DNA of 64,000 bases from Geodermatophilus sabuli (GTDB lineage Bacteria; Actinomycetota; Actinomycetes; Mycobacteriales; Geodermatophilaceae), in the NCBI RefSeq assembly GCF_010686765.1, contig NZ_JAAGWF010000004.1:62001-126000 (forward strand), in the 5' to 3' direction. Positions within the stretch are counted from its first letter, which is position 1. Each line of letters opens with the position of its first letter. The position numbers and the translations under genes are program-made. Below are positions 1,887-23,032 of this stretch, in pieces. The notes under the pieces are model-generated. The model was not told the origin of the DNA and searched no databases. It saw nothing but the letters and a program-made list of their open reading frames with translations.

Positions 1887-1909
1887 GATGGTCGAGCCGA
1901 GGAGATCTC

Positions 1910-4533: not shown

Positions 4534-4731
4534 GTGAAGATCACCGTCGACCGCGATGCCTGCATCTCCAGTGGGATCTGCGCACTCGATGCACCAACAC
4601 TGTTCGACCAGGACGACGAGGGCGTCGTGCTGCTCCGCACCGACAGGCCGGCCGCAGAGGACGAGCAGCTCGCCCGAGACGCCGCCTTGGCCTGCCCCGC
4701 GTCGGTGATCACCGTGACAGAGGTCGAGTGA
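4534..4731 (+). CDS. Ferredoxin of the bacterial P450 partner type
   Basis: A 65-residue single-cluster ferredoxin. Cluster ligands fit Cxx(X)xxC(n)CP: CISSGIC at residues 10-16 and ACPAS near 50, with Ser at the variable position. This arrangement is common in [3Fe-4S] or [4Fe-4S] ferredoxins that feed electrons to actinobacterial P450s. The GTG start at 4534 follows AGGAAGG; a longer in-frame reading from 4468 is arginine-rich and unlikely. The partner P450 is probably the gene at 12573-13820, about 8 kb away on the other strand. No ferredoxin reductase is visible in the window. Confidence 0.85.
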   Translation: MKITVDRDACISSGICALDAPTLFDQDDEGVVLLRTDRPAAEDEQLARDAALACPASVITVTEVE

Positions 4732-5987: not shown

Positions 5988-6037
5988 CCGTCGGAGGAGG
6001 GCTGTTCCGGGCACGCCTCGTGTCGCCGAGCTGCAGG

Positions 6038-8009: not shown

Positions 8010-8012
8010 CCA

Positions 8013-8879: not shown

Positions 8880-9003
8880 GGCCCGTCCATCGGCGAGATC
8901 CTCGTCTTCAGGGACAGCCGAACGACGCGGTCGTCGACAACGACGGGAATCACCAGCACGGCTCGTCCGCCCTGTCTCCCTCCGGCTGTCCGCATGAGTC
9001 AGG

Positions 9004-9945
9004 TCAGATCTCCTCGAGACGGCCTCGCGAGACCAGTCCCTGCCGTGCCGCCCAGACCTCTACCGAGTCCAGGACCCCGCGGTCGCCGGTCGGATCCGGA
9101 GGAACCCGGTAGGCAGAGAGTCGCTGGGACCCGACCGCCGGACTCAGCAGGCGGTAGGCGAACCGGCGCTCGTGAAGGCGTAGTCCCGACCGGCGGAGCA
9201 CCTCCGCTGCCAGGATGATCTGCAGCGGGCCGTGGATCACGAGGCTGGGATAGCCCTCGTGCGCGGCGTACTCCTTGTCGTAGTGGATGCGGTGCGCGTT
9301 GTACGTCAGAGCCGAGAAGCGGAACAACAGCACAGGGTCGACCGAGAGTTCCAGCCGTCCCGAGCCGGCCCCGGGAGCGGGCAGGTCTCCTTCGGGCTCC
9401 AGGTGGGGTACGCCCCCGTCCGCCGGCGGCTCCGGCTTGTAGACGATGTCCTGCTCGTCCACGACGCAGAGCCGCCCGCTCTGCGTGATGTCGTGCCGAA
9501 CGGTGACGAAGGTGAGCCTGCCGGACCGCCCGGACTTGGTGACCGACTCCACGATCCGGCTGGTCCGCAGTGCGGGCGCGCCGATCTCCAGGCCGTGGTG
9601 GTGGACCGTGCGCCCACCTGCGAACATCCGTCGACTGCCCGGTACGGGAGGGGACGGAAGTCCGCTGAGCGAGTGCCCGTCGGGCCCGAGATCCGACTGA
9701 GGGCTCGCCTCCAGCAGGTGGACCAGATGCCACATCGGGGGCAAGACCCCGCCGTCGAGCAGCGGCTGCGGAGCTACCCCGAGGAGACCGGCAAGGGCTC
9801 GGGTGTGGAACTCGTCCACGGTGCCCGCGCGCCGCACCGGATCGGCCGTCCGCTCCTGCGCCGCATCAGGAACCCTCGTCGGGATCACCGGCCGCTCACG
9901 GCCCGGAGGATCGTGGCGACCGGTGATCGGCGACGGGTCGGACAT
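9004..9945 (-). CDS. MaoC/FAS1-like acyl-CoA hydratase, resembling mesaconyl-C4-CoA hydratase (Meh)
   Basis: A 313-residue hot-dog-fold protein of the group with a FAS1-like N-terminal half and a MaoC-like C-terminal half. The diagnostic stretch RFSALTYNAHRIHYDKEY, followed by GYPSLVIHGPLQ, lies near residues 215-250 and contains the hydratase Asp/His-type residues. It resembles mesaconyl-C4-CoA hydratase and the related HTD2/itaconyl-CoA hydratase proteins. The predicted reaction is hydration of mesaconyl- or itaconyl-CoA to citramalyl-CoA. ATG 9945 shares one base with the upstream stop (TGATG), so it is coupled to the SnoaL-like gene; the longer reading to 10098 overlaps that gene wholly. 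Confidence 0.8.
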   Translation of the reverse strand: MSDPSPITGRHDPPGRERPVIPTRVPDAAQERTADPVRRAGTVDEFHTRALAGLLGVAPQPLLDGGVLPPMWHLVHLLEASPQSDLGPDGHSLSGLPSPPVPGSRRMFAGGRTVHHHGLEIGAPALRTSRIVESVTKSGRSGRLTFVTVRHDITQSGRLCVVDEQDIVYKPEPPADGGVPHLEPEGDLPAPGAGSGRLELSVDPVLLFRFSALTYNAHRIHYDKEYAAHEGYPSLVIHGPLQIILAAEVLRRSGLRLHERRFAYRLLSPAVGSQRLSAYRVPPDPTGDRGVLDSVEVWAARQGLVSRGRLEEI

Positions 9946-10415
9946 CAGAAGGGCGACAGCAGCGGGATGTCCGTCGGAGCGCTCACGAACCACCTGTTGA
10001 CCACGCGCTCCGCGATCTTCCAGACCCCGGCACGACGCTCGAACACGTCGTTGTACGTGCCGCCGACCAAGCACACGAGTCCCTCGTGCTGCTCGCACAT
10101 CGCGTACACGTCGCTGCGTCCCACCGCGCGATCCTCAGACTCGAAGCCGACCACGAGGTTGGTCGTCCAGTGGTAGGTCTGCTTCCATGCCTTCGCGATG
10201 ACCTCCTGGGATTCCCGAATGCGCTCGATCCCCACGAAGTCACCTCGGCCGCCGGGAATGAGATAGGAGGCGTCGTCGTGCCACAGGGACATGAACAGGT
10301 CGAGGTTCTGTCGGTCCACCCCCTCGCAGTAGCCGGCGACGAGTTCGGCGATGGCGGTCCGGCTCTCGATCCTGTCGAGGCGCGCGGCCAGTGTCGTGGT
10401 GTCGACGTCGGACAT
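9945..10415 (-). CDS. SnoaL/NTF2-like protein
   Basis: A 156-residue cone-fold protein. TAIAELVAGYCEGVDRQNLD, then LWHDDASYLIPG, and the end pattern VWKIAERVVNRWF match SnoaL-like polyketide-cyclase or ring-hydroxylating dioxygenase beta-like domains. These act as isomerases, dehydratases or small-subunit scaffolds in steroid, terpene and aromatic catabolism. ATG 10415 was chosen for the GAGG at about 9 bp upstream, which overlaps the stop of the preceding NTF2-like gene. Substrate unknown. Confidence 0.72.
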   Translation of the reverse strand: MSDVDTTTLAARLDRIESRTAIAELVAGYCEGVDRQNLDLFMSLWHDDASYLIPGGRGDFVGIERIRESQEVIAKAWKQTYHWTTNLVVGFESEDRAVGRSDVYAMCEQHEGLVCLVGGTYNDVFERRAGVWKIAERVVNRWFVSAPTDIPLLSPF

Positions 10416-10426
10416 GGGAGCTGACC

Positions 10427-10993
10427 TCACTTCTTCGTGCGGAACTGGGCCGGGTAGTTGTCGGGGAGGTCCTCCTCGGCGAGGGGCTGCAGCTGGTGGC
10501 AGAAGACCGCCCGGTCCTCCCCCTTGGCCTTCCCCTCCTCGTCGAAGTCCCAGAAGACGATCGTGCGCGCCGCCAGGACGTAGAAGTCGCTCTGGGGGGT
10601 GTCCGGCTTCACGAAGCCCATCTTCTCGGCGACGGCGGCCGTCAGGATCTGCCGAAAGGTGCCTTCGGTGACGATCTCGTCGTCGGCCACGACGACGCGC
10701 GTCTTCTTCGACTCGATGACGTAGGAGCCGTTCGCGACCATCTCGGAGTAGTTGGCCTTGACGGCAGCCATCCCCTTGGGTCCCGTGTCCTCGAGAGTGT
10801 CGGCGAAGACGCCGTACTCGTGGTACTGGGGATCCTCGGACAGCGTCGGCAGCACCATGTCGAGGTCGGCGGAGACCTCGCCCTTCGAGTGATGCACGAC
10901 GGTCTCGAGGTTCGCCCGCTGCCGCGGGGTCTTCGCCTTGTGCATGTGCTGCTCGAAGCTGGTGTACGTCAGCTCGGGCCTGAGGTCCTTCAT
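10427..10993 (-). CDS. NTF2-like protein of unknown function
   Basis: A 188-residue soluble protein, first gene of a three-gene leftward operon (NTF2-like, SnoaL-like, Meh-like). An N-terminal helix (RQRANLETVVHHSKGEVSAD) leads into a cone-like beta pattern, DLDMVLPTLSEDPQYHEY, GMAAVKANYSEMV, then DEIVTEGTFRQIL and RTIVFWDFDEEGKAKGE. This is the layout of large SnoaL-like domains with an unusually long middle. I do not know the reaction. The ribosome site GGAGG lies just before ATG 10993, and the motif copy at 11041-11062 lies upstream. Confidence 0.68.
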   Translation of the reverse strand: MKDLRPELTYTSFEQHMHKAKTPRQRANLETVVHHSKGEVSADLDMVLPTLSEDPQYHEYGVFADTLEDTGPKGMAAVKANYSEMVANGSYVIESKKTRVVVADDEIVTEGTFRQILTAAVAEKMGFVKPDTPQSDFYVLAARTIVFWDFDEEGKAKGEDRAVFCHQLQPLAEEDLPDNYPAQFRTKK

Positions 10994-11040
10994 CTTGTGT
11001 CCTCCCTCGTCACGCCCCCCGGCTCGGGCAGCGCAGCAGA

Positions 11041-11062
11041 TATATAGCCATGTAAACTAATC
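11041..11062 (-). promoter_or_regulatory. Operator-like motif copy E, weaker match
   Basis: AT-rich site (TATATAGCC, then ATGTAAACTAATC) between the MFS stop and the NTF2-like operon. About 11 of 19 positions agree with copy A. It sits where the promoter of the leftward NTF2-SnoaL-Meh operon should be. It is the least certain of the five copies. Confidence 0.3.
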
Positions 11063-12556
11063 GCCGCGGGTGACGGTCGCAATAGCGATCGGCTGGGAAC
11101 TTGGAGTCTGCGAGCCGGCGTCGAGCAGAGGCCGCAAAGGCCGGGCACGCAAGCCGGCCGGGCGCTCCGCCAGTCGGTCACGGCGCTCAGGGACGGTCAG
11201 GCTGACGAGCATCGACGCCAGGCAGGCTGCCGCACACAGCCCCAGCGCGAGGTCCACCCCCGACTCTGTGGCGAATCCTTCCAGAGCGCCCGGGTGCGCA
11301 CCGAGAACGGCCGCTGTGCCGGCACTACCGAGCGCTCCTCCGACCGCGCGGAGCAGGATGTTGAAGCTGGTGGCGCTCCCTGTCTCGGACGGCTCGACGG
11401 CGGCCACGATCAGGTTCGGCATCGTCCCGAAGGTCGCACCGGAGCCTAGGGACGACACGGTGATCGACGCGACGAGTGCCCAGACCTGCCCTTCGCCGGC
11501 GATCAGTACGACAGGACCGGCGCATGCGAGCAGGCCGCCGGCAGCCAAGGCGAAACGCGGGCCCACAGCGCCGGTCAGGATGCCCGACGCCCAACTGCCG
11601 ACCAAGTTTCCCGGCGCGATCGCGATCATGACCAGCCCGATCGTCGCGAGGCCGAGAGCCGCTCCGTAGCCCGTCGCGTGCGGAGCCTGCCCCATCCGGC
11701 TGATCAGGACCGGCAGGCTGTACAGGCTCACGCCCATCAGCACCGCCGTGAGGTTCGCCGCCATGACGTTCCGGTGGCGTAAGAGGCGCAGGTCCACGAG
11801 CGGCGCTGCGACCCTCAGTTCGACCCACCACCACGACGACAGGGCGCAGACGCAGACTCCCGCGAGTGCCAGGACGCGCGGGTCGAGCCACCCCCACGCA
11901 TTTCCCTGACTCAATGCGAGCAGTCCGGCGGATGACCCGGTGATGAGCAGCACGGCCCCGCCGACGTCCACGCGGCGTCGCCGAGATGGGCCATCGGCAC
12001 GTGGCAGGCCGGCACACCCGGCCAGCGTCACCAGGACGCTCAGTGCCGCCGCTCCGCCAAAGGCGACAGCAAGCCCGAAGGTCTCGGTGACCCACGTCGT
12101 CAACGGATAGCTGAAGCCGGCGCCCATCGCCGTGGTGACCGACAGCAGCGCGACCACCCCGGGGACCCGACCGGGAGCCACATGGTCCCGGGCGGTGGCG
12201 ATCGTCATCGCCACCAGTGCCACGGCCAGACCTTGCAGGGATCGCCCGGCGATGAAGACGGCGAACGACGGGGCGAAGCCCGACAACCCACACCCGACGG
12301 CGACCAGACCGCTGACGGCGATCGTGGCCGGCCTCCGCCACCCCCCGTCGGCGAGTCTCCCGAGCAGCGGCGTACACGTCGCGCCCACCAGCAGCGTGAT
12401 CGTGTACGACCACTGGGCACTCTCCTCCGAGACGCCGAACTCGGCCTGGATCTCGGGGACGAGCGGCGCCCCCAACGTGACGACTGCCGCCGAGATCAGC
12501 GCGGTCGCGACCAGCGTGGGAACGAGCGGGAAGCGTCCTCCTGCATCGCCTCTCAT
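11057..12556 (-). CDS. MFS transporter, DHA2 (EmrB/QacA)-like
   Basis: A 499-residue membrane transporter with about 14 hydrophobic segments. GRLADGGWRRP (about residue 60) is the MFS loop 2-3 motif, and ISAAVVTLGAPLVPEIQAEFG opens the first segment. The size and topology fit the drug:H+ antiporter-2 family, but substrates of pathway transporters in this family vary. It lies 16 bp downstream of the P450 gene in the SDR-P450-MFS operon, so it may move the P450 substrate or product. Its TAG stop lies within the motif copy at 11041-11062. Confidence 0.83.
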   Translation of the reverse strand: MRGDAGGRFPLVPTLVATALISAAVVTLGAPLVPEIQAEFGVSEESAQWSYTITLLVGATCTPLLGRLADGGWRRPATIAVSGLVAVGCGLSGFAPSFAVFIAGRSLQGLAVALVAMTIATARDHVAPGRVPGVVALLSVTTAMGAGFSYPLTTWVTETFGLAVAFGGAAALSVLVTLAGCAGLPRADGPSRRRRVDVGGAVLLITGSSAGLLALSQGNAWGWLDPRVLALAGVCVCALSSWWWVELRVAAPLVDLRLLRHRNVMAANLTAVLMGVSLYSLPVLISRMGQAPHATGYGAALGLATIGLVMIAIAPGNLVGSWASGILTGAVGPRFALAAGGLLACAGPVVLIAGEGQVWALVASITVSSLGSGATFGTMPNLIVAAVEPSETGSATSFNILLRAVGGALGSAGTAAVLGAHPGALEGFATESGVDLALGLCAAACLASMLVSLTVPERRDRLAERPAGLRARPLRPLLDAGSQTPSSQPIAIATVTRGD

Positions 12557-12572
12557 CCCGCGAAGCCGACGA

Positions 12573-13820
12573 TCAGAGAGTGACAGGCAGCGACTCCACC
12601 GATCGCATCTTCAATCCGGCCCATCTGGGCGCGACCCCGTCCGCGAACTGCATGTCGGGGAACTTGTCCAGGAGCGTGTTGAGAGCAATCTGCAGCTCAC
12701 CCCTGGCCAGCATGGCGCCGAGGCAGAAGTGGCGACCGAAGCCGAACGCGAAGTGCTCCCCGCTGGCAGCGAAAGCCTTGGAGTGGTCGAGGTCGGAGCG
12801 GTCCGGATCGAAGGTCTCCGAGTTGGCGAAACGGCGCTCGTCCCGATTCGCCGAGGCAATCAGCAGCATCACCACAGATCCCTTCGGAATGGTGACGCCC
12901 TCGATCTCGACGTCCTCGGTGACCTTGCGGCCGTTCATCTGCGACGGCGGCGTGAACCGGAGCGTCTCGCTGACCGCGGCCATCAGATAGTCCCGATCGC
13001 TCAGAGCTCGCTCAAACAACTCCCGCTCGGTGAGGAGGTGCGTGACCGCGCTGGCCAACGTCTTGCCGGTTGTCTCGGACCCGGCATTGAGCAACTGCGT
13101 GATGTGCGTCCGGACCTCCGCGTCGTCCAGCGACTCACCGTCGATCTCTGCCGTGACCAGCGCGGAGATCAGATCCTCCCCCGGATTCCGGCGGCGTTCC
13201 TGGATCACTGGTGTCAGGTACTCCCACAGCTCGGCCGTCGCCTGCCGACCAAGGGCATCGATCCCGGGATCGCGTCCCAGATTGCCGAGGAAGTTGACCT
13301 GGGCCGTGTACCACCCCAAGAAGCGGTCGTAATCGCTGTGCGGGAGACCGAGCATGTCCGTGATGACGTAGACCGGGAGGTAGTAGGCGAACTCGCCCAG
13401 CAGGTCGACGGTCTTCCCCGGCCGGAATCCGCTGACGAGCATGTCCGTTGCGTTCTGGACCGACCGGTCGAGGATCAGGTTGACGTTCCGCGCGATCACC
13501 GGCAGCCACGACTCCAGGCCCTTGCCGCGGAAGTGGGGAGTCACCAGCCCCCGCTTCCGGCTGTGTTCGCTCCCGTCCATCTGCAGCAACGAGCGTCCGA
13601 AGACCGGTTCGAGATGGACCTCGTAGTTCTGCGTCGAGAACACGCTGTTGCGATACGCGGCCCCGACGTCGGCGTGCCGACTGAGCAGGAACCCACCGAA
13701 GTTCTGATCCCAGTGGACGGGTGCTTCCGCCCGGAGCCGGCGGTAGAAGGCGTAGGGATCCGCCGCGACCTCGGGCCCGAGGAACGCCGGGAGCGTGGTC
13801 GAGGTCGAGGTCGAGGTCAT
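12573..13820 (-). CDS. Cytochrome P450
   Basis: A 415-residue soluble class I P450. The heme loop FGFGRHFCLG lies at residues 359-368 with the axial Cys at 366. The I-helix has LNAGSETTGKT (the usual acid/alcohol pair seen as E-T), and the K-helix ExxR appears as SETLRF. It would hydroxylate or epoxidise the pathway substrate with electrons from the ferredoxin at 4534-4731. Its ATG overlaps the SDR stop (ATGA), so a P450-made alcohol may be oxidised directly by the SDR. The N-terminus has an odd run of Thr-Ser repeats (TSTSTSTT) from a short GAGGTC DNA repeat. Confidence 0.92.
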   Translation of the reverse strand: MTSTSTSTTLPAFLGPEVAADPYAFYRRLRAEAPVHWDQNFGGFLLSRHADVGAAYRNSVFSTQNYEVHLEPVFGRSLLQMDGSEHSRKRGLVTPHFRGKGLESWLPVIARNVNLILDRSVQNATDMLVSGFRPGKTVDLLGEFAYYLPVYVITDMLGLPHSDYDRFLGWYTAQVNFLGNLGRDPGIDALGRQATAELWEYLTPVIQERRRNPGEDLISALVTAEIDGESLDDAEVRTHITQLLNAGSETTGKTLASAVTHLLTERELFERALSDRDYLMAAVSETLRFTPPSQMNGRKVTEDVEIEGVTIPKGSVVMLLIASANRDERRFANSETFDPDRSDLDHSKAFAASGEHFAFGFGRHFCLGAMLARGELQIALNTLLDKFPDMQFADGVAPRWAGLKMRSVESLPVTL

Positions 13821-14656
13821 GCTGACACCTCCGCGTACTGGCTGTTGAGCTGATCGAGTCGGTAGCCGGGGGCACCGCCGGCCAGCGGCATGACCGAGAG
13901 GCTGACGCCACCATCCACAGGGAGGTCCACCCCGGTGATCTGCGATGCCTGCGGACCGGCGAGGAAGAGCACCGCGTCGGCGACGTCGTCCGGACGTCCG
14001 ATCTTGCGCAGCGGGATGAGCGCCTCGCGATAGGCGCGATTCTGCTCGGATGCCGAGCTGACACCCGCTCCGAAGGAGTTCCGCGTGAGCGAGGTGTCCG
14101 TCGGGCCGGGAGACACGCAGTTCGCCCGGATGCCGTACTTACCCCACTCCAACGCCATCTGCTTGATCAGCATGACCAGCGCGGCCTTGCTGGGACTGTA
14201 GAGCCCGGCCGGAGGAGTCGGATGCGTCGCCGAGATCGAGGCCGTCGCCACGATGGAGCCGCGCGACTCCTTCAGCGCAGGGAACGCCGCCTTCCCGAGC
14301 AGCCACGTGACCCGGGTGTTGATCGCGAAGGTCTTCTCGTAGGCATCGAGCTCGATGTCCTCGAGCGGACCGCCGAGGAGCACCCCGGCGTTGCTGATGA
14401 TCGCATCCAGGCCGCCGAAGGCCTCGATCGCGGATCGTACGGATCCCGCGGGGGCGACCGGGTCCTCGAGGTCGACCACCAACGGCAGGATGGTCACACC
14501 GCTACCGGCCAGTTCCTCCGTCAAGGCGCCGAGGGCTTCCTGGTCACGATCGATCAGTGCGAGCGAGACAGGGTGATCACCCGTGGCTCGACGGACCGCC
14601 TGGGTGGCAACGGCACGGCCGATCCCACTGGCGGCACCCGTGATCAAGTAGCGCAT
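13817..14656 (-). CDS. Short-chain dehydrogenase/reductase
   Basis: A 279-residue classical SDR and first gene of the SDR-P450-MFS operon. The cofactor loop TGAASGIG lies at residues 6-13, NAG at 89-91, the catalytic Ser near 140-142, and Tyr153/Lys157 in LYSPSK. The Asp after the second strand (LIDRD) favours NAD(H) over NADP(H). It probably oxidises an alcohol made by the P450 translated next. Motif copy B sits about 45 bp upstream. Confidence 0.88.
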   Translation of the reverse strand: MRYLITGAASGIGRAVATQAVRRATGDHPVSLALIDRDQEALGALTEELAGSGVTILPLVVDLEDPVAPAGSVRSAIEAFGGLDAIISNAGVLLGGPLEDIELDAYEKTFAINTRVTWLLGKAAFPALKESRGSIVATASISATHPTPPAGLYSPSKAALVMLIKQMALEWGKYGIRANCVSPGPTDTSLTRNSFGAGVSSASEQNRAYREALIPLRKIGRPDDVADAVLFLAGPQASQITGVDLPVDGGVSLSVMPLAGGAPGYRLDQLNSQYAEVSA

Positions 14657-14914
14657 GGACCATCCTCCTGCGGCCTGATGACTGGAGTACCCGGGTGAAT
14701 CATTAACCTTGTGAAGTACCTTCCATCGTCCCCGTGATGGCGCTCACTCGTCAAGCCCCCGCTCCGAGCGTCAGGCGAGAGCGAGACGGTGCCCGGTGCG
14801 TGGGTCGGCTCGGCGCAGAACCACTGCGGCAACCCCGCACGCGCGTTGTGGGGCGCGTCTCGACTCGCTCTGCAACCCCACCGGCACGGGCCCGCCGACC
14901 GCTCGGGTCACCGG
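14657..14914. other. Promoter region of the SDR-P450-MFS operon
   Basis: A 258-bp gap between the crotonase operon end and the SDR start. It contains a ribosome site (GGAGGATGG) before ATG 14656 and motif copy B at 14699-14720. The rest (14721-14914) shows short runs but no gene I can support. Confidence 0.45.
14699..14720 (+). promoter_or_regulatory. Operator-like motif copy B
   Basis: The site ATCATTAACCTTG, then TGAAGTACC, matches copy A at about 15 of 19 central positions. It is placed about 45-65 bp upstream of the SDR start, consistent with a regulator site at the promoter of the SDR-P450-MFS operon. Confidence 0.45.
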
Positions 14915-15790
14915 TCAGGAGTGACTTCGTGACCGCGCGAGGGCGGCGTCGGTTCCGTTGTCCCTCGCGTCCTTGAGGAAGTTGTACTCGTCCGGCTGGA
15001 AATGGATGTTGCTCAGGGATGCACTGACCACCGTCGCTGCCGCGAACGAGTGAGTGACACCCATCTTCGCCAAGGAGGCGAACACGGCGTACTTCTCGGT
15101 CACGATCCCGTCGCGCATGATCGACGCACACATGCCCGCGAACTCAGCAGTGGCAGTTGCCGGATCGATCGACAGCTTGTCCACCAGGCCGTACCGATGG
15201 GCGTCGGAGGCACTCCACGGCCGTCCCCCGTACATCATCTCCTTGGCGCGCTTGAGGCCGACCGTGGCGATGAGGAGGGACAGATCCCCGTCGGCACCGA
15301 CGTTCTGCCACCTCGGACACGCGAATCGCGCATCGGGCGAGGCGACGACGAGGTCGCTGCAGAGGGTCAGATAGAGCCCCGTCTCGAAGCAGTCGCCGAC
15401 CGCTTGGGTGATCGTGACCTTCCGACAGTGGAGCAGTCGCGAGTAGAGCCCGTCCGGTCCCCACCAGTAGTCGTCGAGGGCGATCAAGCGGGCGCGCTGG
15501 CTCGGGTGCTTGCGGACGGCCCCTCCCGGAGCGTCCTGATACTGCTGCCACGCATCGTCCGGATCCCAGCCGCTGGACAGGTGCTCACCTTCACCGCGGA
15601 TGACGACCACCTTGACCTCGTCGTCACCGTCGACGACGTCGAGGTGACGCACGAAATCGCGCGCCATCGTCCTGGTCAAAGCGTTGCGGCGCTCGGCCCG
15701 GCGCAGAACGATGTCGGCCCGGTGGCTCTCCCGGTCGATCAAGAGATCGACCAGCGGCGCGGGCGTGCCCACGACATCGCTCGCGCTCAC
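14915..15790 (-). CDS. Enoyl-CoA hydratase/isomerase (crotonase) family protein
   Basis: A 291-residue crotonase-fold protein, last gene of the acyl-CoA synthetase operon. RNALTRTMARDFVRHL and VVIRGEGEHLSSGWDPDD mark the N-terminal fold and the first oxyanion-hole strand; DCFETGLYLTLCSDLVVA marks the second. The first oxyanion segment reads LSSGWD rather than the usual CSG-D, and the position where hydratases carry the second Glu is not clear, so isomerase, hydrolase or C-C lyase chemistry is possible. GTG 15790 in a GTGA overlap is preferred; the reading to 15949 would lie inside the upstream gene. Confidence 0.8.
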   Translation of the reverse strand: MSASDVVGTPAPLVDLLIDRESHRADIVLRRAERRNALTRTMARDFVRHLDVVDGDDEVKVVVIRGEGEHLSSGWDPDDAWQQYQDAPGGAVRKHPSQRARLIALDDYWWGPDGLYSRLLHCRKVTITQAVGDCFETGLYLTLCSDLVVASPDARFACPRWQNVGADGDLSLLIATVGLKRAKEMMYGGRPWSASDAHRYGLVDKLSIDPATATAEFAGMCASIMRDGIVTEKYAVFASLAKMGVTHSFAAATVVSASLSNIHFQPDEYNFLKDARDNGTDAALARSRSHS

Positions 15791-16485
15791 TTTCCGCCCC
15801 ACAGGTCGCGGGCGTAGTGGGGGGCCATGTCGAACTCCCGCCCGACGCCATGACCATCGAGCACGGCTTGGAGAAGCATCTTCGACATCGTGATCCCGTC
15901 GAGTGGCATTCGGCAGACGTCCTGGGCAAGGGAGGCGGTTCTCGACCACACCTGGTCGACGGGCTCGAGAAAGTTCACCAAACCGATGGCATGCGCCTGC
16001 TCGGCCGGCAACACGTCGTCGGTGAGGGCCCAGGCCTTGGCTCGGTTGAGTCGCATCGTCAGCGACGCGAGGGCGAAGTTGGCCTCGGGTATGGCGGCGA
16101 AGGGTGACCCGAACGTGCTGTCTTCCCCGGCGACCGTGAGATCCGAGCAGAGCACGAGCACGGTACCCGCGCCGGTGCAGCGCCCCTGGACCTCGGTGAC
16201 CACCACCTTCTTCGAGAAGCAGAGCGTCTGATAAATGGCGGCCGAGCCGGCGAAGTCACGACGCCAGGCGGGCAGTCCGCTCGGCCGATCCTGGTCGCCT
16301 GCGGCGCCCGGCGGTGCGAAGTCCGGGCCGGTCGCCCTCAGCAGCACGACCTTGACGTCGTCGTGATCGTTGAGCTCCAGCACGGCGTCGCGCAGGTCGT
16401 GCGCGAAGTCGTGGTCGTACCGGCTGAGAGGGCTGAAGTCGTCGACCTCGATCGTCCCCACCCCCACAGCCAGCGATGTGTTCAT
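15787..16485 (-). CDS. Short crotonase-fold protein
   Basis: A 232-residue member of the enoyl-CoA hydratase superfamily, shorter than the usual 255-290. Recognisable are DVKVVLLRATGPDFAPPG at the first oxyanion strand, GRCTGAGTVLVLCSDLTVAG at the second, and FGSPFAAIPEANFA. The N-terminal strand (TxNRPxxxNA) is missing, so the protein begins late in the fold. It could be a divergent partner subunit of a neighbouring crotonase rather than an independent enzyme. ATGA overlaps couple it to genes on both sides. Confidence 0.72.
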   Translation of the reverse strand: MNTSLAVGVGTIEVDDFSPLSRYDHDFAHDLRDAVLELNDHDDVKVVLLRATGPDFAPPGAAGDQDRPSGLPAWRRDFAGSAAIYQTLCFSKKVVVTEVQGRCTGAGTVLVLCSDLTVAGEDSTFGSPFAAIPEANFALASLTMRLNRAKAWALTDDVLPAEQAHAIGLVNFLEPVDQVWSRTASLAQDVCRMPLDGITMSKMLLQAVLDGHGVGREFDMAPHYARDLWGGK

Positions 16486-17402
16486 CGAGGACGCTCCGCG
16501 ACGGCACGAGGATCGGCTGCACCCTTGCGCTTCTTGTCCGCGTCCAACGCGCCACCCACCCCGACTTCCTTGGCTGTCTTCCAGAAATCCATCTCGTCGG
16601 GCGCGGACTGCAGGAAGTGCGACACGAGCAGACCGGTGATCGACGGCACACTGGTGTCCATGAGCCCCTCCGCAGCTCGGATCCGCCGCACCAGGTACTG
16701 CTGGTGATGCGTCGGGGTGGCGGCCAACCGCCGGGCGAGCGTCGCCGTCACGTCGGGAAGCTGGTCAGCGGTCGTGACGGCGTACACCAGGCCGAGTGAC
16801 TGAGCCTCGGACCCGCTCATCGCCTGGGCCGTGAATCCAGTCCGGCGAGCGGCCTTCATGCCGAGGATCCGGTTGATGTGGACGCTGGCGACCGCGCCGG
16901 CCGGCCCCAGAAATCGCGCCTCGAGCGCACCGATGCGGGCGTCGTCGGCCGCCACGACGAGGTCGCACTTGCAGGCAATCATGAAGTACGCCGCGGCCGC
17001 ACAGTATCCGTGGAGCTGGGCGATGGTGATCTTCGAGGAGCGAGAGATCGCCTGGCTGAAGCCCAGGCGACCCCACGCCATGTCCGCGCCGTATCGGTAG
17101 CCGACGGTCAACGTGCGACGCCGCTCGTGCGGTCGCCGCTGACCCCACTCCTCGTTGATCTCGTTCCCGCTGCAGAACGACCGGCCGGCACCGCGGAACA
17201 CGACGACCTTGATGTCGTCGTCGAACTCGATCTGGCCCATGAGATCGGTGATCCGATCCCGCATGGGGACGCTCATCGCGTTGTGCTTCTCGGGGCGATT
17301 CAGCGTGATGGTGGCGACGCCGCTGTCCCGGTCGACGTCGAATTGAACCTGGTCCTCGGCCGCAGCGATGCTCTCGTCGGTGCCGTACCTCTTGGCAGCC
17401 AT
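16482..17402 (-). CDS. Enoyl-CoA hydratase/isomerase family protein
   Basis: A 306-residue crotonase with a full N-terminal strand (ATITLNRPEKHNAMS), the first oxyanion segment RSFCSGNEINEEWG and the second QLHGYCAAAAYFMIACKCDLVVA. The spacing is typical, but the helix contributing the second catalytic Glu reads RFLGPAGAVAS, which does not show the usual Glu pair, so double-bond isomerisation or ring hydrolysis may suit better than plain hydration. ATG 17402 with GAGG a few bases upstream is preferred to GTG 17408. It is followed by a second crotonase in ATGA overlap. Confidence 0.82.
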   Translation of the reverse strand: MAAKRYGTDESIAAAEDQVQFDVDRDSGVATITLNRPEKHNAMSVPMRDRITDLMGQIEFDDDIKVVVFRGAGRSFCSGNEINEEWGQRRPHERRRTLTVGYRYGADMAWGRLGFSQAISRSSKITIAQLHGYCAAAAYFMIACKCDLVVAADDARIGALEARFLGPAGAVASVHINRILGMKAARRTGFTAQAMSGSEAQSLGLVYAVTTADQLPDVTATLARRLAATPTHHQQYLVRRIRAAEGLMDTSVPSITGLLVSHFLQSAPDEMDFWKTAKEVGVGGALDADKKRKGAADPRAVAERPR

Positions 17403-17404
17403 GC

Positions 17405-17497
17405 TCACCTCACCCCGGCGCTGAGTTCGAGGCAGAGCCGGGGAGTCGGGCCGCCACCCATCTGCCTGCCGATGACAGTGATGTCGAATTCACGCAT
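17405..17497 (-). CDS. Possible 30-residue small protein between acyl-CoA synthetase and crotonase genes
   Basis: A small ORF reads MREFDITVIGRQMGGG and then a Pro/Leu-rich tail to TGA. Its ATG overlaps the stop of the acyl-CoA synthetase by 8 bp, and its own stop lies 2 bp before the ATG of the next crotonase, so it fills the gap exactly, as translationally coupled genes do. No family is recognised. It may be a real micro-protein, or simply a ribosome bridge that keeps the operon coupled. Confidence 0.35.
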   Translation of the reverse strand: MREFDITVIGRQMGGGPTPRLCLELSAGVR

Positions 17498-19697
17498 CGG
17501 TCGGCACTCCCGTCTGCTCAGCAGGCTTGTCCCCCACGGTCACCACGAGGACGTCGAGACCCTCGACGACGCTTCCGTCGACCCGGAGGGGGTTGACCTC
17601 CAGAGTCTCCAACCGATCTCCCAGCGCGAGAGCGGCCTGGGCGATCTGCACGATCACGTCGCTCACCGCGTCGACGTCCGCGGGCGTGGCCCCTCGCGCT
17701 CCCTGGAGCAACGAGACGGCTGTGAGCTCGAGCAACATGTCCTTGACCGTGGCCGCATCGACCGGCAGGACGCGCAGGCTGACGTCCCGCAGGATCTCCA
17801 CCCAGATGCCACCGAGTCCCACGGCGAGCACCGGACCGAAAGTCGGATCCATGGTGATCCCGACGAGGAGTTCCTGTCCGCCCGTGCGCATGGGCGAGAC
17901 GAGCACTCCCCGGAGGTCAGCGTCCGGGACTTTCCGGCGGACGGCGGTGGAGATCCGCTCGTACGCGGCATGAACAGCCTCCGAGCCGTCGACCCCCAGG
18001 ACGACGCCGCCGACGTCCGACTTGTGCGTGATCGCGCGGGAACAGATCTTCATGGCGGCCGCGCCGTCGAACCGCAGCGCTGCGGCTGCCGCGTCGTCGG
18101 CCGTGGTCACCAGCTCGGCCGGAACCATCGGCACACCGTTCGAGGCGAGGAGCGCCCGGCCCTCGTCCTCGGCCCACGCACCCTCGATGGCGGGCGCCGA
18201 GTCATCGCCTGCGCGGACTGCAGTCTTCCCCCTCGCAAGTATGCGGTCCCGCTGGTCGATCCAGCGCATCATGCTGCCGAGCGAGGACATCGCCAGATCG
18301 CCACCGGGCATGAGGAACAAGCCGGAGGACGCGAGCAGGCGTTGTGGGTACTCCGGGACGTCCAAGCAGGTGTTGGACGATAGGAAAACCGGCACGGGCG
18401 AGTTCTTGACGATGTCACCGAGGATCTCGAGCCGACTCTCGATGAACGTCGGATCGTCGGGCCGGGTCGCCGGCAATGGCGTCATCATCGTGAACATGAA
18501 GTCGATCCCGGGGTCCTGGACGGCGATCTCCATCAGGTCGTCCTCGGCCTTCGTTGGTCGGGGCCGCGCCCGGGCGTGCCCGTAGCCCGTCGTGTCGAGA
18601 GGGTTGAGGATCGAAGCGAACGGCGGCAGGTGCTCGCTCAGGTTCGCCACGGTCTTCTCGTCCCACGGCGGTAGCTCGAGTCCGTTGGCCACTGCGAGGT
18701 CGGCGATGATGTTGCAGCCACCCCCCGAAGAGGTCACCACCCCCATCCGGCGGCCAGTGGGCCGGCGACCGTGATAGCCCAGCAATGCCGCCGTCGACAC
18801 CAGTTCTTCGATGCTCTCGACCCTGACGATCCCCGCCTGCCGGAATGCCGCGTCCACGACTGCGTCATCGGTCGCCACAGCGCCGGTGTGGGCCGAGGCC
18901 GACCGCTTGCCCTCTTCGCTGCGTCCTGCCTTGAACGCGACGATGGGCTTGTCGAGTTCGAGCGACTTACGACCGAGCTCCATCAGGCGCTCGGGCTCAC
19001 GCACGCTCTCCAGGAAGAGCGCGACTGACTTCGTCGCCTCGTCCTCCAACAAGTATTCGAGGATGTCCAGACTGGTCATGACGGCGGAGTTCCCGACGGA
19101 TGCCCACAACGTCGAACCGACGCCGTGCGCCTGGGCGAACTCGTGCGTCGCCCGAGCCATCGATCCGCTCTCGAACACCGCCCCGACCGGACCACGGAGC
19201 GGGGCACGGTTGGTCGCCACCGCCCATGGGGCCACGCCCGCCGGGGCGTTGATGAATCCGATCGTGTTCGGACCCATGATCGTGATGTCGAGGCCCAAGG
19301 CGAGCTGAGCGAGGCCGTGCTGGCGAGCGCGCCCGTCGTCGCCCGTCTCGCCATATCCGGCTGCCAGGATCACCGCGTTCTTCACGCCGGCCGCGGCGGC
19401 GTCCTCGAGGATCTCCTCGACCCGGGTCGGTCCCACCAGGATGAACGCCATGTCTGCCGGTTCGTCCAGGTCCCGAAGGTTTGGGATGGTGGGCTGGCCG
19501 AAGAGTTCGTTGTGCTTCGGGTGGACGAAGGTCAGCTCCTTGTGCCCACCGGCATGACGCAGGCTGCCCATGAGGTTGACAGCCCAGCTCGAGGAGTCAG
19601 ACGCACCGACGACGGCGATCCGACGAGACCCGAAGAAGCGGTGAAGCCGCTCTGGGGTGACCAGCCGCCGCCGATCCTGGTAGTCGAGTGATGACAC
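17490..19697 (-). CDS. ADP-forming acyl-CoA synthetase (acetate-CoA ligase ADP-forming-like)
   Basis: A 735-residue single-chain NDP-forming acyl-CoA synthetase that makes acyl-CoA from acid, CoA and ATP. Order: CoA-binding Rossmann domain (RIAVVGASDSSSWAVN near residue 30), succinyl-CoA-ligase-like flavodoxin domains with the phosphorylated His in RSASAHTGAVATDD, then a C-terminal ATP-grasp domain (SRAITHKSDVGGVVLGVDG and LAVGLGGIWVEIL). Keeping this His suggests an active enzyme, unlike the paralogue at 33462-36245. GTG 19697 follows AGGAAGG; the longer reading to 20012 crosses a tandem repeat. It heads the operon with the crotonases and is the likely entry step. Confidence 0.88.
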   Translation of the reverse strand: MSSLDYQDRRRLVTPERLHRFFGSRRIAVVGASDSSSWAVNLMGSLRHAGGHKELTFVHPKHNELFGQPTIPNLRDLDEPADMAFILVGPTRVEEILEDAAAAGVKNAVILAAGYGETGDDGRARQHGLAQLALGLDITIMGPNTIGFINAPAGVAPWAVATNRAPLRGPVGAVFESGSMARATHEFAQAHGVGSTLWASVGNSAVMTSLDILEYLLEDEATKSVALFLESVREPERLMELGRKSLELDKPIVAFKAGRSEEGKRSASAHTGAVATDDAVVDAAFRQAGIVRVESIEELVSTAALLGYHGRRPTGRRMGVVTSSGGGCNIIADLAVANGLELPPWDEKTVANLSEHLPPFASILNPLDTTGYGHARARPRPTKAEDDLMEIAVQDPGIDFMFTMMTPLPATRPDDPTFIESRLEILGDIVKNSPVPVFLSSNTCLDVPEYPQRLLASSGLFLMPGGDLAMSSLGSMMRWIDQRDRILARGKTAVRAGDDSAPAIEGAWAEDEGRALLASNGVPMVPAELVTTADDAAAAALRFDGAAAMKICSRAITHKSDVGGVVLGVDGSEAVHAAYERISTAVRRKVPDADLRGVLVSPMRTGGQELLVGITMDPTFGPVLAVGLGGIWVEILRDVSLRVLPVDAATVKDMLLELTAVSLLQGARGATPADVDAVSDVIVQIAQAALALGDRLETLEVNPLRVDGSVVEGLDVLVVTVGDKPAEQTGVPTDA

Positions 19698-19709
19698 GAG
19701 GGCTTCCTT

Positions 19710-19779
19710 CCTGTGGTCCACCTGGACCAGCAACCGCTCGGGACCCTGTGGTCCACCTGGACCAGCAACCGCTCGGGAC
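19710..19779. repeat. Perfect 2 x 35-bp tandem repeat containing a 16-bp near-palindrome
   Basis: Positions 19710-19744 and 19745-19779 are identical. Each copy holds TGGTCCACCTGGACCA (19714-19729 and 19749-19764), inverted arms TGGTCCA/TGGACCA around CC. Its TGGT and ACCA ends recall sites of GntR/FadR-type repressors. It lies in the leader just upstream of the acyl-CoA synthetase ribosome site, so it could be a duplicated operator; a recent duplication with no role cannot be excluded. Confidence 0.75.
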
Positions 19780-19781
19780 AG

Positions 19782-19803
19782 TTGCTTAGCGTGGTTTACT
19801 TTT
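19782..19803 (+). promoter_or_regulatory. Operator-like motif copy C
   Basis: The site TTGCTTAGCGTGG, then TTTACTTTT, shares TGCTTAGC, TGGT and TA with the korA-side copy at 1777-1798. It sits directly upstream of the tandem operator-like repeat and is probably near the promoter of the acyl-CoA synthetase operon. Confidence 0.45.
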
Positions 19804-19964
19804 TCACGGCACCGGCTCGCACACAAGGACATCGGGGCGGAAATTCCCGCTCCACACCGCGTAACCGGTCCGAACGGGGCTGCTCCTCGCTGACTTGCGT
19901 GACTACCTGGTAAGACCCACGTGAAGATCGACGGGATGGCCGCCTCGGGACCGGCGCGGCCTCG

Positions 19965-20100
19965 GGACTGGGGGCCGCCACGGGTTGCCGCTCTGGCCGA
20001 ACAGGGAGCCATCGTCTACGGCCCCGACCTCCAACCCGCGGCGGAAGACGCCAGCCGCCTTCTCGAGGGACGACACCTGCCTTACGCCGACGTCACTGCC
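19965..20100 (+). pseudogene. Fragment of a short-chain dehydrogenase gene
   Basis: The reading frame contains VAALAEQGAIVYGPDL, then QPAAEDASRLLEGR and HLPYADVTA. This matches the second strand and following acidic loop of an SDR, but the cofactor glycine loop ahead of it is destroyed and the rest is missing. The frame then joins an IS30 fragment. It is the leftover of a gene interrupted by transposition. Confidence 0.55.
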
Positions 20101-20412
20101 CGACGGGCACAGCGCGGAAGGGCTGCGGATGACGATGCTGCCGGTCCTCACCGACCTCCCGACCTCGCCCGGCAGACCCTCACCTGGGGCCAGGGCTAGG
20201 AGATGGCCTGCCACCACCTGCTCGAGGAGTACTTCGCCGACGGCATCTTCTTCGCACTACCGGGCAGCCCCTGACTGCGCAGCACGAACGAGAACATCAT
20301 CGGGCTCCTCCGCCAGCACTTGCCCAGAGGCAGCCCCCTGAGCGCCTTCACCGACGATCTGGAAGCGGTCGATCAGCGCATCAACGGCCGTCCTCGGAAG
20401 CGACGTGGCTGA
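20093..20412 (+). pseudogene. IS30-family transposase C-terminal remnant
   Basis: It starts as LPDGHSAEGLR in one frame, shifts near 20150-20170, and then reads RQTLTWGQG, a stop, EMACHH, IFFALPGSP, a stop, STNENIIGLLRQHLP and DQRINGRPRKRRG. Intact IS30 transposases have TWDQG, SPWQRGTNEN and LNGRPRK at these places, so the second stop replaces the SPW tryptophan. With a frameshift and two in-frame stops it cannot be active. Confidence 0.75.
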
Positions 20413-20449
20413 GCCGCCAGTCCCGCAGGTCGGCGCCGTTGCTCCGTGA

Positions 20450-20805
20450 CCCCGAAGACGGCCTGCGGGTCTTCGCCGGCTACCCGTCGCACTGGGAGGG
20501 AGTCGGTCGACCAACCCGCTCGAGCGGCTGAGCGAGGAGATCAAGCGCCGCACCGATGTCGTCGGTGCCTTCCCCAATCCCGAGGCCCTGCTGCGCCTCG
20601 CCGGCGTGGCGCTGGTCGAGGCGCACGACGAATGGCAGGTCTCCGACCGCCGCTACGTCTCCGAAGGCTCCATAGCCCTGACTCAACCGGCCCGAGAACC
20701 CGACCAAGGAGGTGGCGCAACCGGCCCTGTCCGTCATAGGCATCACACAGCTGACCAACACGGTGAGGGCTGCACATCCACCACTCAGCGGGACGTGACC
20801 TCCGG
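20450..20805 (+). pseudogene. IS256-family (Mutator-type) transposase C-terminal remnant
   Basis: Fragments in two frames read RVFAGYPSHW and then TNPLERLSEEIKRRTDVVG, FPNPEALLRLAG and EAHDEWQVSDRRYVSEGS, which follow the C-terminus of IS256-type transposases. A frameshift lies between the first and second pieces (about 20495-20510). All the N-terminal DDE part is gone. It directly follows the IS30 remnant. Confidence 0.78.
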
Positions 20806-20856
20806 CCCCACCTCCAGGATCTATGCAGCTCTCAAGATCACAAGGCATCACACCTC

Positions 20857-21435
20857 ATGCACGCGGGGTCGGCCAACTCGTCGGACGGGTTTCAGGAGGA
20901 TGCCCCGGACGCTGAGTGCATGGCAGTTGGAGGGTGCGCCGACGACCGAGCTCGCAGGCGCGAGTCTGAACGGCGACGTCGGGAGCGCACCGCGCAGCGA
21001 GGCGTCACCGGCCAGTCCGCGCCGGCCGACGTACCGGCGAGCACATCGTCTGTTGGCGGCGACCGACGGGCAGCCGCTGTGTCTTGCGCCTGGTGCGGCG
21101 GCGCCATCTTGCCTCGGCCTCGAGGACCCATCCCGAAGTGGTGCTCGGCCAGTTGCCGTCGCCGCGCCTGGGAGCAGGGCCGCGCGGCGGCCTCCGGGCG
21201 GTCGGCTGTCGCAGTCGTCGAGCGTCGGGTCAAGGTTCACGTGCCGATGTCGCCAACGCGCCGGGACTGGGCGCCGCTGCTGAGCGAGCTGACCCGCCAA
21301 CTGGAGGATGGCCGCGTCTACGACCGCGACCTCGCGGATCTCGCCGCGGCGCTGAGGACTGTCCTCGACGCCTACGGCCGACGGCCGTACGTGCGGGACC
21401 GGAGCGTCGGAGGTCACTCCGCCGATCTGTGGTGA
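20857..21435 (+). CDS. Conserved-looking hypothetical protein with a four-Cys zinc knuckle
   Basis: Up to 192 residues. A central CAWCGG...WCSASCRRRAWEQ segment (about residues 77-107) has CxxC and CxxxC pairs that probably bind zinc and resemble the short zinc knuckle of HNH or mobile-element proteins. A basic N-terminal third and a C-terminal helical half (LLSELTRQLEDGRVYDRDLADLAAAL) follow. The start is uncertain; ATG 20920 is a shorter option and neither has a strong ribosome site. It lies between the transposon scar and the proposed island edge. Function unknown; DNA binding is a guess. Confidence 0.6.
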   Translation: MHAGSANSSDGFQEDAPDAECMAVGGCADDRARRRESERRRRERTAQRGVTGQSAPADVPASTSSVGGDRRAAAVSCAWCGGAILPRPRGPIPKWCSASCRRRAWEQGRAAASGRSAVAVVERRVKVHVPMSPTRRDWAPLLSELTRQLEDGRVYDRDLADLAAALRTVLDAYGRRPYVRDRSVGGHSADLW

Positions 21436-21692
21436 AGGTCGAGCCGGTTCAACCGTCGACAGTGGTTCGGCGCCTCGACCGGCCGCGTGAGTCGAACCAA
21501 GGTCTCCAGTCATCCTGCAGCGCAGACGACGACTCCAGAACGAACTGGAGCCGAGGAGTCCGCGGCTGCCCGATGTCACGGGCAGCAGGGCTGGAGAACA
21601 ACAGGACCTCCCATTCCGCTGCCGTCCGGCAGGTCGGCGCGCAGACAACTCGCCTCAAGGCGAACTGGAGGAGGGCGAGCAGCCTTCGTGGC

Positions 21693-21989
21693 ATGACGGC
21701 CGACCGCTTCCTGATCGCGCGGCTCGCCGCGCACCAGTCGTGGGCCAACACGGCCGACCGCAGCGCGCGTACCGCACCGGCACGACGCGCCATGCTGGAC
21801 CGCTTCGAGAACCAGGTCGACCCCGACGGCGTGCTGTCGCCGGCCGAGCGGGCGCGTCGAGCCGGGCACGCTCGTAAGGCCTACTTCACCCGCCTCGCGC
21901 TCCGGTCGGCGCAAGCGCGACGCAGGAAGCTCGGGTCATCGGCGGGGGATGGTCGTGCCGATGCTTCGGGCCAGGACCAAGCGCGGTAG
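21693..21989 (+). CDS. Small conserved hypothetical protein (about 98 residues)
   Basis: A basic, helical protein, MTADRFLIARLAAHQSWAN, then DRFENQVDPDGVLSPAERARRAGHARKAYF. I recognise the pattern as a small uncharacterised actinobacterial protein that names neither enzyme nor fold. It has no signal or membrane segment. ATG 21693 was chosen because similarity begins there; the longer reading from 21084 runs through an unrelated frame. With the zinc-knuckle protein it forms a pair at the island's right end. Confidence 0.58.
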   Translation: MTADRFLIARLAAHQSWANTADRSARTAPARRAMLDRFENQVDPDGVLSPAERARRAGHARKAYFTRLALRSAQARRRKLGSSAGDGRADASGQDQAR

Positions 21990-22350
21990 TTCAGCCCGGC
22001 CAACCGCAGCGAGAGACGCCCCTAGGGGCCTGCGGCCGTCAAGGCGGCACTCGGCGGCGCAACCAACCCCAGCCTCAGTACAGCGGACACAACCCGACGC
22101 CAAGACTGCGTCACTGCGTGAGCGGCCCAACGAGGGCGCTCCTGTAGCCCGCTCAGGAACACAACGGACCGAGACCCCCGAAGGGATGCCATGCCCGCTC
22201 GGCCCGGGCCACATAGAATTGGCCACTTCCGCCAACCGGTAGCGAATATCTCAACTGAGCTGGGCTCTCAGTCCAGGATATTCCACTGCACAGCGCTTCT
22301 CACCAGGACGCTTGATCGCAGGTCAGCACAGCGCTCAGGCCTGCCTAGTG
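21990..22350. other. Non-coding stretch at the right end of the proposed island
   Basis: No gene can be supported. Base composition changes from the mixed pattern of the block to the GC-rich pattern of the right part within this stretch and the next 100 bp. There is no tRNA or integrase in it. Confidence 0.4.
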
Positions 22351-22368
22351 CGCGACTACCTGGACTGA
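22351..22368 (+). pseudogene. Last codons of a primary sigma factor gene (rpoD/sigA 3' remnant)
   Basis: The 18 bases encode RDYLD and a stop, the usual C-terminus of actinobacterial primary sigma factors. Together with the next bases TGAAGAAGGACCCC they match the 3' end and terminator start of the intact sigB gene at 33340-33370, which ends RDYLA. The codons before RDYLD do not match a sigma factor, so only the tail is here. The next gene is DUF7455, the normal rpoD neighbour. It is probably one end of an insertion. Confidence 0.6.
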
Positions 22369-22435
22369 AGAAGGACCCCTCTCCTCGCCCCGCCTCGCGA
22401 GCTCGGCGCGGGCCCAGGGAGAGGAGCCGTCGCGC
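22369..22435 (+). terminator. Terminator-like palindromic element after the rpoD tail
   Basis: The element opens AGAAGGACCCCTCTCC and closes GGGAGAGGAG, with core CCTCGCGAGCTCGGCGCGGG between. It is a copy of the repeat family also present at 28741, 33358, 36180 and 47645, which sits immediately after stop codons. Confidence 0.6.
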
Positions 22436-22437
22436 CC

Positions 22438-22464
22438 GGCCCCCGACCAGTGCGGTCGGGGGCC
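22438..22464 (+). terminator. Strong hairpin, 11-bp perfect stem
   Basis: The arms GGCCCCCGACC and GGTCGGGGGCC enclose AGTGC. It directly follows the palindromic element. No T-run follows, as usual in high-GC actinobacteria. Confidence 0.65.
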
Positions 22465-22807
22465 GTCGGCTGTGTGTCGGTCAGGTCACGATCTCACCCT
22501 TCGGTACCGGGTGGGTCGTGTACGCCGTCGCCCGCCGGGTAAGCGGCGTAGCGTGGGGGACGTCAAAGACAGCAGCGGACCCACTGCCGGACCGAGCCCG
22601 GCGCAACGGAACCGATCACGACGACAGATCAGCATCATCCAGGCACGGCGTCCCTGCTGACCGACCCACCGGCACCTCTGGCCCCGGACTCACCACTCAT
22701 GGCGAGTCCACCGGCCGGAACGCCCGGGTCGGGAACACAGGGGTCCATCCTGGCGCTGTGCAGGAGGCCGATCCGCAGCCGCGGGTCCGTGCGGTAGAGA
22801 GCGAGTG
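22465..22807. other. Leader region of the DUF7455 gene
   Basis: This 343-bp region has no supported gene. One open frame here (22191-22808) is a low-complexity shadow. A -10-like TAGCGTGG lies near 22550. The ribosome site before 22808 is weak. Confidence 0.35.
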
Positions 22808-23032
22808 ATGACCCAGATGACCCAGACGCTGACGACGACCCCGCCCGCCGACGACCTGGTCGTCCCCTTCCACTGTGACCGCTGCGGTGCGCTGGCCAAG
22901 GTGCGGGTGGTCCTCGCCAGCGGCAGCGACCTCGTGTTCTGCGGGCACCACGCCCGTGAGTACGAGGGGAAGCTCCGCGACATCGCGGCCGACATCATCG
23001 AGACTGACGGCGAACAGCGCGTCACCTCCTGA
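22808..23032 (+). CDS. DUF7455 small zinc-ribbon-like protein
   Basis: A 74-residue protein with CDRCGALAKVRVVL (CxxC) near residue 20 and a second metal pair in VFCGHHAREY. It matches the small DUF7455 proteins commonly encoded just downstream of the primary sigma factor gene in actinobacteria. Here only the last codons of that gene lie upstream, 440 bp away. ATG 22808 is preferred to GTG 22805. The function is not known; the metal site and the neighbourhood suggest a part in transcription. Confidence 0.75.
   Translation: MTQMTQTLTTTPPADDLVVPFHCDRCGALAKVRVVLASGSDLVFCGHHAREYEGKLRDIAADIIETDGEQRVTS

Follow-up and report, generated by a model that had tools for sequence, protein, structure and literature searches.

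The analyzed window, a stretch of 64,000 nucleotides of Geodermatophilus sabuli (C30:62001-126000 of genome G000, an assembly of 4.79 Mb in 122 contigs), contains a junction at which a long block of accessory genes ends shortly before a conserved host gene (Table 1). The G+C content shifts at this point from ~0.69 on the left to ~0.75 on the right. The junction itself is marked by 20 bases (22349-22368) that were found by sequence comparison to be identical to the 3' end of rpoD at C100:263824-263843, i.e., on a different contig. Positions 22351-22368 thereof (CGCGACTACCTGGACTGA) encode RDYLD and a stop codon and are followed by AGAAGGACCCC; the bases to the left of the tail represent non-sigma-factor sequence. 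This 18-mer exists in exactly two copies within the 4.79 Mb assembly, the other one (C100:263826-263843) being the stop-codon end of the intact rpoD, and the match is thus not a matter of chance. An earlier note on this DNA had already recognized the RDYLD tail, the unrelated codons in front of it, the compositional shift and DUF7455 as the next gene, all of which our data confirm, although the repeat starts at 22349 instead of 22351. Its equation of the tail with the end of the nearby sigB (32371-33357) did not hold: sigB ends in CGCGACTACCTCGCCTGA (RDYLA) followed by AGAAGAGGACCCC, carries two mismatches in the core and was discarded as repeat source, the true partner being rpoD on C100. A tRNA gene was likewise rejected as target, with no tRNA detected in the window or in 15 further loci.

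Table 1. Features at the junction, with coordinates of the window unless a contig (C) is named.
Feature	Position	Strand	Remarks
Right-hand 22.3 kb of the probable ~92 kb island	1..22348		Scanned genes mostly CoA-dependent catabolic; G+C ~0.69
Decayed transposase remnants with stops	20200..20660	+	By-eye reading of the sequence, near the right end
Right-end open frame	20857..21435	+	Start provisional; zinc-finger-like CAWC...CSASC stretch
Second putative arm-type site GCACAGCGCTT	22288..22298	+	One mismatch; -61 from the core
Putative arm-type integrase site GCACAGCGCTC	22326..22336	+	23 bases left of the core
Probable attR core TGCGCGACTACCTGGACTGA	22349..22368	+	Duplicated last codons and stop of rpoD; distal attachment site
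Former rpoD 3' flank and terminator region	22369..22440	+	Now ~92 kb from rpoD, as inferred; continuous with rpoD in relatives
DUF7455 gene	22805..23032	+	PF24254, E 3e-21; first conserved host gene right of the island
fdxA pieces at four contig ends	C30:1-101; C100:271312-271405; C5:151065-151166; C60:387006-387390		

To the right of the core, the former rpoD flank folds at -34 kcal/mol, which is not better than shuffled sequences, and 58 of 60 other genomes contain a match to the DUF7455 gene. To its left, the right-end open frame yielded no Pfam match; its called part (21247-21435) shares 79% identity over 52 residues with positions 15715-15894 of G024b, and the right ends of the G000 and G024 elements align over 1128 bp at 73%. 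The transposase remnants near this end are presumably IS30-like and IS256-like.

On contig C100, rpoD is intact and codes for 419 residues comprising sigma-70 regions 1.2, 2, 3 and 4, so that an intact copy with the same tail is present elsewhere in the genome, as the note had anticipated. A tyrosine integrase with the Pfam domains PF00589 (Phage_integrase) and PF02899 (SAM-like) begins 116 bp past the rpoD stop. It would lie beyond the left edge of the window, where it had been expected, but this copy is frame-broken, the frame changing near L010:2330 towards the catalytic end. Full-length relatives exist in G. chilensis (G017) and in Modestobacter, and the integrase of G. africanus (G003) seems to be frame-broken too. 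Residues H240, R243 and Y275 are invariant in eight aligned integrases, and we take H240/R243 (HxxR) and the C-terminal Y275 to hold catalytic roles of tyrosine recombinases. The first 62 bases after the rpoD stop fold into a hairpin at -45 kcal/mol (z -6.4). Among the loci folded, such a hairpin is strong in Geodermatophilaceae, most Streptomyces and several Nocardia; being weak or missing in some, it was dismissed as a universal part of these elements.

Of the four right ends tested, three carry the motif GCACAGCGCTC at -23 with at most two mismatches, and six of seven Geodermatophilaceae left ends carry it at +75/+76 of their integrase side with at most one; the chance of encountering it in a shuffled arm is 0.02-0.07. 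A counterpart of the second putative arm-type site is located at -62 in G024 with two mismatches, and Streptomyces phage Kromp carries copies resembling GCACAGCGCTC at +64 and -22, each with two mismatches.

Comparison with relatives revealed the locus in its unoccupied form, with rpoD no more than 1.5 kb upstream of DUF7455 in 19 of 29 relative loci. Joined flanks (the rpoD side of C100 and the window from 22369) aligned unbroken across the joint in 16 of the 29 relatives; the left junction (attL) was crossed in none and the right one (attR) in a single relative, G024, which contains the same kind of element. These counts refer to a cut-off of 30 bases on each side and change to 15, zero and one, respectively, at 60 bases. 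Short insertions between rpoD and DUF7455 in G001, G004, G020, G022, G025 and G031 were rejected as elements, having no second core. The comparison of island DNA with sister genomes covered 9000-19600, C30:2001-14600 and metF. Of 25 sister genomes, 3 match 9000-19600 (10.6 kb), and these only in fragments of 64-80% identity, whereas all 25 match the right flank control (23000-33600). The note had called the 22 kb to the left foreign, which is correct where sampled, but the block extends over ~92 kb if our contig join holds, the window containing its last 22.3 kb. Stretches of C30:2001-14600 are 83-90% identical to sister genomes and to paralogues within the own genome; hence, not all of the cargo is exotic, and part of it may originate from close relatives or later exchange. 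In the data examined, we encountered neither the 22 kb as a stable core region nor an intact rpoD devoid of a matching tail at a boundary.

Two repeats, an adjacent integrase, an empty site in relatives and, where sampled, foreign inner DNA are thereby established at the level of sequence comparison. We are highly confident that the block is an integrated genomic island, which a phage-type tyrosine integrase inserted at the rpoD 3' end. The 20-base repeat pair supports the proposal of the note that the rpoD end served as attachment site, leaving a duplicate at the right end. A circular element would have borne a copy of the last rpoD codons beside its integrase gene, and recombination in the shared core, probably inside TGCGCGACTAC, would have yielded attL and attR. 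Between the two end copies, the core diverges from position 12 onward in G024 and from position 14 in G009; provided that these differences predate integration, the crossover falls within TGCGCGACTAC. At attL, the reading frame of rpoD would be kept intact with a 3' flank that is now element-derived, the hairpin just past the stop possibly acting as an element-supplied terminator; at attR (22349-22368), the old rpoD tail and terminator would have been left in front of DUF7455. Both the strand-exchange reaction and the arm sites are what we infer from the DNA. With its integrase frame-shifted, the island is probably fixed now, unless the frameshift represents a sequencing error. The broken frame counts against the assignment, which does not depend on an integrase that works at present.

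The two ends of the island are located on different contigs, which is a point against this assignment. The end of C100 (at 271405) consists of the 3' part of fdxA and the start of C30 of its 5' part, both on the minus strand. The native fdxA is likewise split, with the 5' part and the native upstream region at the end of C60 and the 3' part and the native downstream region at the end of C5. Once the fdxA halves are assigned by their native flanks, C100 and C30 remain to be paired with each other, across a gap of ~134 bp. The C100-C30 join and the length of ~92 kb would thus follow from assembly logic (fdxA), not from reads, the island amounting to 7,582 + ~134 + 84,368 bases, i.e., ~92.1 kb with both core copies included. 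Further ferredoxin-like matches on C30 are situated at 54597-54919 and 17016-17182.

A Pfam scan covered 41 of the 73 called island genes. Its content comprises metF, a split B12-type methionine synthase behind a SAM-IV riboswitch, P450s, aldehyde and alcohol dehydrogenases, a thiolase, enoyl-CoA hydratases, acyl-CoA synthetases, CoA-transferases and a branched-chain-type transporter; neither conjugation genes nor phage structural genes, capsid included, were found among these 41 genes. The SAM-IV riboswitch, metF and the methionine synthase distributed over two genes occupy L017:14134-18876 (C100:265633-270375) inside the island. The island metF has no second DNA match in its own genome (E 1e-20), and its 79-84% likeness to a metF situated elsewhere in all 25 sister genomes is a point against the assignment. 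A decayed C-terminal piece of a second, distant tyrosine integrase is also located inside the island (C100:270582-270784; L017 ~19083-19285).

Within Geodermatophilus and Modestobacter, an element-type hairpin flank follows rpoD in G000, G003, G009, G016, G017, G024 and G131; G015 has a degraded version of it. The integrase is present at rpoD in five of these (G000, G003, G017, G024 and G131) and was not found next to rpoD in G009, G015 and G016. Right ends with the core were detected in G000 and G009 and, with two mismatches and one mismatch, respectively, in G016 and G024; in G003 and G015, no right core was found at up to four mismatches, which speaks against the assignment. The same host gene (93% identical) is located beside the occupied site of G016 and the empty site of G025, and G009 (occupied) shows the same pattern versus G001 and G020 (empty). 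A conserved core of Geodermatophilus-type elements was considered and rejected, as little is common besides the integrase and the ends: two small genes in G009 and G024 (93-95%), one in G003 and G016 (72-75%), the right-end frame in G000 and G024 (79%) and otherwise weak matches of common families (25-45%). Defence genes as general cargo were dismissed as well, with one strong candidate and a weak TIR match (G024) among ten proteins. In the rpoD-site region of G015, a protein (L107:4785-5888) matches the PADLOC candidate family PDC-S02 (E 9e-143), and G028 possesses two rpoD-like genes (C7:468988-469344 and 188747-189103) with 100% and 94% identity to the C-terminal 119 residues of the query. 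In G024, rpoD with the integrase (C1:1937887) and attR with DUF7455 (C1:3737798) reside on one contig 1.8 Mb apart, which suggests that a breakpoint of a large inversion or rearrangement falls within the element, and indicates that rearrangement can separate element ends.

Extension of the integrase search to the family level gave a match (E 1e-20) in 25 of 112 genomes, five of which, the own one included, have an integrase of at least 72% identity adjoining rpoD. On order level (397 genomes), rpoD/sigA is directly upstream in all ten genomes with an integrase of at least 67% identity (own included) and in none of the 13 weaker matches; rpoD is also upstream in G003 and, for a contig-end fragment, in G102 (60%), both originating from the family search. 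A named integrase scan was evaluated for the best 80 of 99 loci. The principal sigma gene is adjoined by 59 of them (58 counted, including cases of 78-80% identity, plus L149, whose sigma piece is short), another sigma factor by one, and 19 are placed elsewhere, with one locus too short; that 21 of the best 80 are not shown to be placed at the principal sigma gene is a further point against the assignment. The 59 include Streptomyces, Mycobacterium, Nocardia, Rhodococcus, Dietzia, Pseudonocardia, Nocardioides, Janibacter, Actinotalea, Actinomyces and Glutamicibacter, and in many genomes the distance from the sigma gene to the integrase is 105-394 bp. Twenty genomes were picked from the 59, mostly for long contigs, and all of them contain a same-strand core pair (at most two mismatches) on one contig, 4.9-32.9 kb apart. 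Some of these genomes also show one or two weaker hits at other places; with the reversed pattern as control, each strand of a genome yielded 0 to 2 hits. As judged from these comparisons, the arrangement at the rpoD/sigma gene end is shared by many other genomes.

These distributions bear on two different explanations of the locus. The tail at 22349 might have been left by an ordinary rearrangement (a duplication, an inversion or an IS-mediated event) instead of an integrase, in agreement with the transposase-like remnants read by eye near the right end, the distant ends in G024 and the broken integrase of G000. We regard this as highly improbable in view of the similar spacing of integrase and sigma gene in many genomes, the presence of a second repeat in all 20 genomes tested, the fixed spacing of the putative arm motifs and the isolated phage Kromp with the tail beside its integrase. 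That the integrase is a resident gene beside rpoD and unrelated to the island would fit an integrase phylogeny partly tracking host families, yet it is scarcely credible given the presence of the integrase in a minority of family genomes, the closeness of rpoD and DUF7455 in most relatives and the distal repeat in every genome tested. The site-specifically integrated island remains our preferred explanation.

An integrase tree was built from 79 of the 80 loci (L217, a short piece, was dropped), Kromp and five outgroups. Sigma adjacency is clustered on this tree, with 7 changes versus 23.1 in shuffles, without forming one clade. Sister integrases follow other open frames, e.g., ones ending in KYVERL or GGYLD; thus, the wider clade seems to favour protein-gene ends. 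In L194, L198, L204, L207, L210 and L218, the integrase is located after a different open frame with a product ending in or near YVERL (frame end in L194, KYVERLTTRYIASEQ), which is possibly another conserved protein-gene target. In L186 (Actinomadura geliboluensis), a clade integrase follows a different sigma-70 factor (64% identity, ending in LREYLE).

The same combination of tail and integrase was found in phages. Kromp, an isolated phage, has an integrase that is 62% identical to the one of G. chilensis, with the sigma tail GTGCGCGACTATCTCGACTGA just upstream of it. From 35 IMG/VR loci, 28 contigs were examined, applying, as for Kromp, a limit of four mismatches in 21 to the tail. Ten of them (among which two pairs look near-identical) have the tail beside the integrase on a non-sigma left flank and are attP-like, an attL-like tail follows the principal sigma gene in four and another sigma factor in one, and in 13 of the 28 the core is absent within four mismatches, several of these contigs starting at the integrase.

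Examination of 58 sigma-adjacent loci led to the analysis of 24 elements with both ends in the sequenced locus, a selection that favours short elements; L164 was left out of the 25 second-core loci, as its second hit (3 mismatches) is not the pair found in the core-pair search. The bracketed elements span 3.0-10.9 kb, with 18 of the 24 at 9.1-10.9 kb. A capsid-type cluster is present in 14 of 24, its members being identified as Phage_capsid (Pfam) in nine of nine tested cases and as a major head protein (PHROGs) in one more. A replication-type cluster (D5_N, AAA_25 or DUF3631) likewise occurs in 14 of 24, three of them via DUF3631 only; one further cluster, with no Pfam match for its tested member, was left out of this count. 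Both cluster types coincide in seven elements. Satellites of the phiRv1/phiRv2 type and capsid-forming satellites are ~10 kb in size and contain an integrase, a primase or helicase and their own capsid. Judged by the genes scanned, many relatives at the sigma site look like capsid-bearing phage satellites of this kind; the window island differs in that the 41 scanned genes, out of 73 called, include no capsid gene.

This size range suggests a refinement, to which we assign slightly less than an even chance: a small element (~10-25 kb) alone would have used the rpoD site, and most of the 92 kb would have accreted by nested insertions and homologous exchange. The predominance of short bracketed relatives points in this direction, given a sample of elements short enough to fit the loci and a range of 4.9-32.9 kb in the 20-genome set, as do the decayed second-integrase fragment and the second fdxA past the integrase on C100 and the near absence of cargo common to G000 and sister elements. 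The outer repeats, however, still enclose the whole block. Such accretion is a refinement of the attachment site assignment and not an alternative to it.

A site-specific element targeting a sigma factor gene is known from Bacillus, where the skin element interrupts sigK and excises to restore the gene. Here, the target is likewise a sigma factor gene, but rpoD stays intact. Islands and prophages at tRNA 3' ends (mycobacteriophages, AICEs) show the same direct repeats, an integrase beside attL, a restored target 3' end and putative arm sites; the difference lies in the principal sigma factor gene as target. In the parts of the literature accessed, the Int-Y phages of M. smegmatis are described with tRNA-overlapping sites only (review PMC9262239), and the vast majority of tyrosine-type AICEs with tRNA genes (PMC3218068). 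For one non-tRNA site of M. abscessus prophages, the accessed passages report that a host protein loses its final seven residues and gains eight encoded by the prophage (PMC8092301); other genes and elements are concerned, with no sigma factor site in these passages. Helper-embedded PICIs, as far as described in the text available, similarly have one integrase clade with subclades per protein-gene site and a satellite gene content (PMC10111431). The 3' end of rpoD/sigA/hrdB as a named attachment site did not appear in the titles, abstract openings and passages searched, a body of text with subscription papers and supplements outside it, and is also unnamed in passages of PMC9934374, PMC5704250, PMC8191103 and PMC12924846. 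Many islands sit in protein-coding genes according to the accessed part of PMC12884075, and the sigma site may consequently well stand unnamed in island databases. The suspicion of a new integration site in the note is thus sustained with regard to the literature searched, but the site is used in many Actinomycetota and is not special to G. sabuli. A site-specific island with attachment site repeats represents an ordinary class of mechanism; the target and its breadth are what is new.

The most interesting point is that integration hands the housekeeping sigma gene a new 3' flank. This raises the question whether the swapped flank alters sigma factor expression. As a broader view, which we put forward tentatively and consider rather unlikely, the principal sigma gene would offer at its 3' end a phylum-wide docking site of Actinomycetota for phages, capsid-bearing satellites and cargo islands with one integrase clade. 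Each integration would then also exchange the terminator and downstream RNA of the housekeeping sigma factor, so that the elements could tune or sense host transcription, and rivals would compete for one spot. Given the essential role and strong conservation of the principal sigma factor, its gene end can be expected as a target in every host, comparable to tRNA genes. For clade integrases, attB should therefore exist in many actinobacteria, offering a possible basis for vectors, and the downstream side of sigA/hrdB/rpoD is a ready place to find more such elements. A broad clade at the sigma gene end would account for the entry of phages, satellites and metabolic islands into many actinobacteria.
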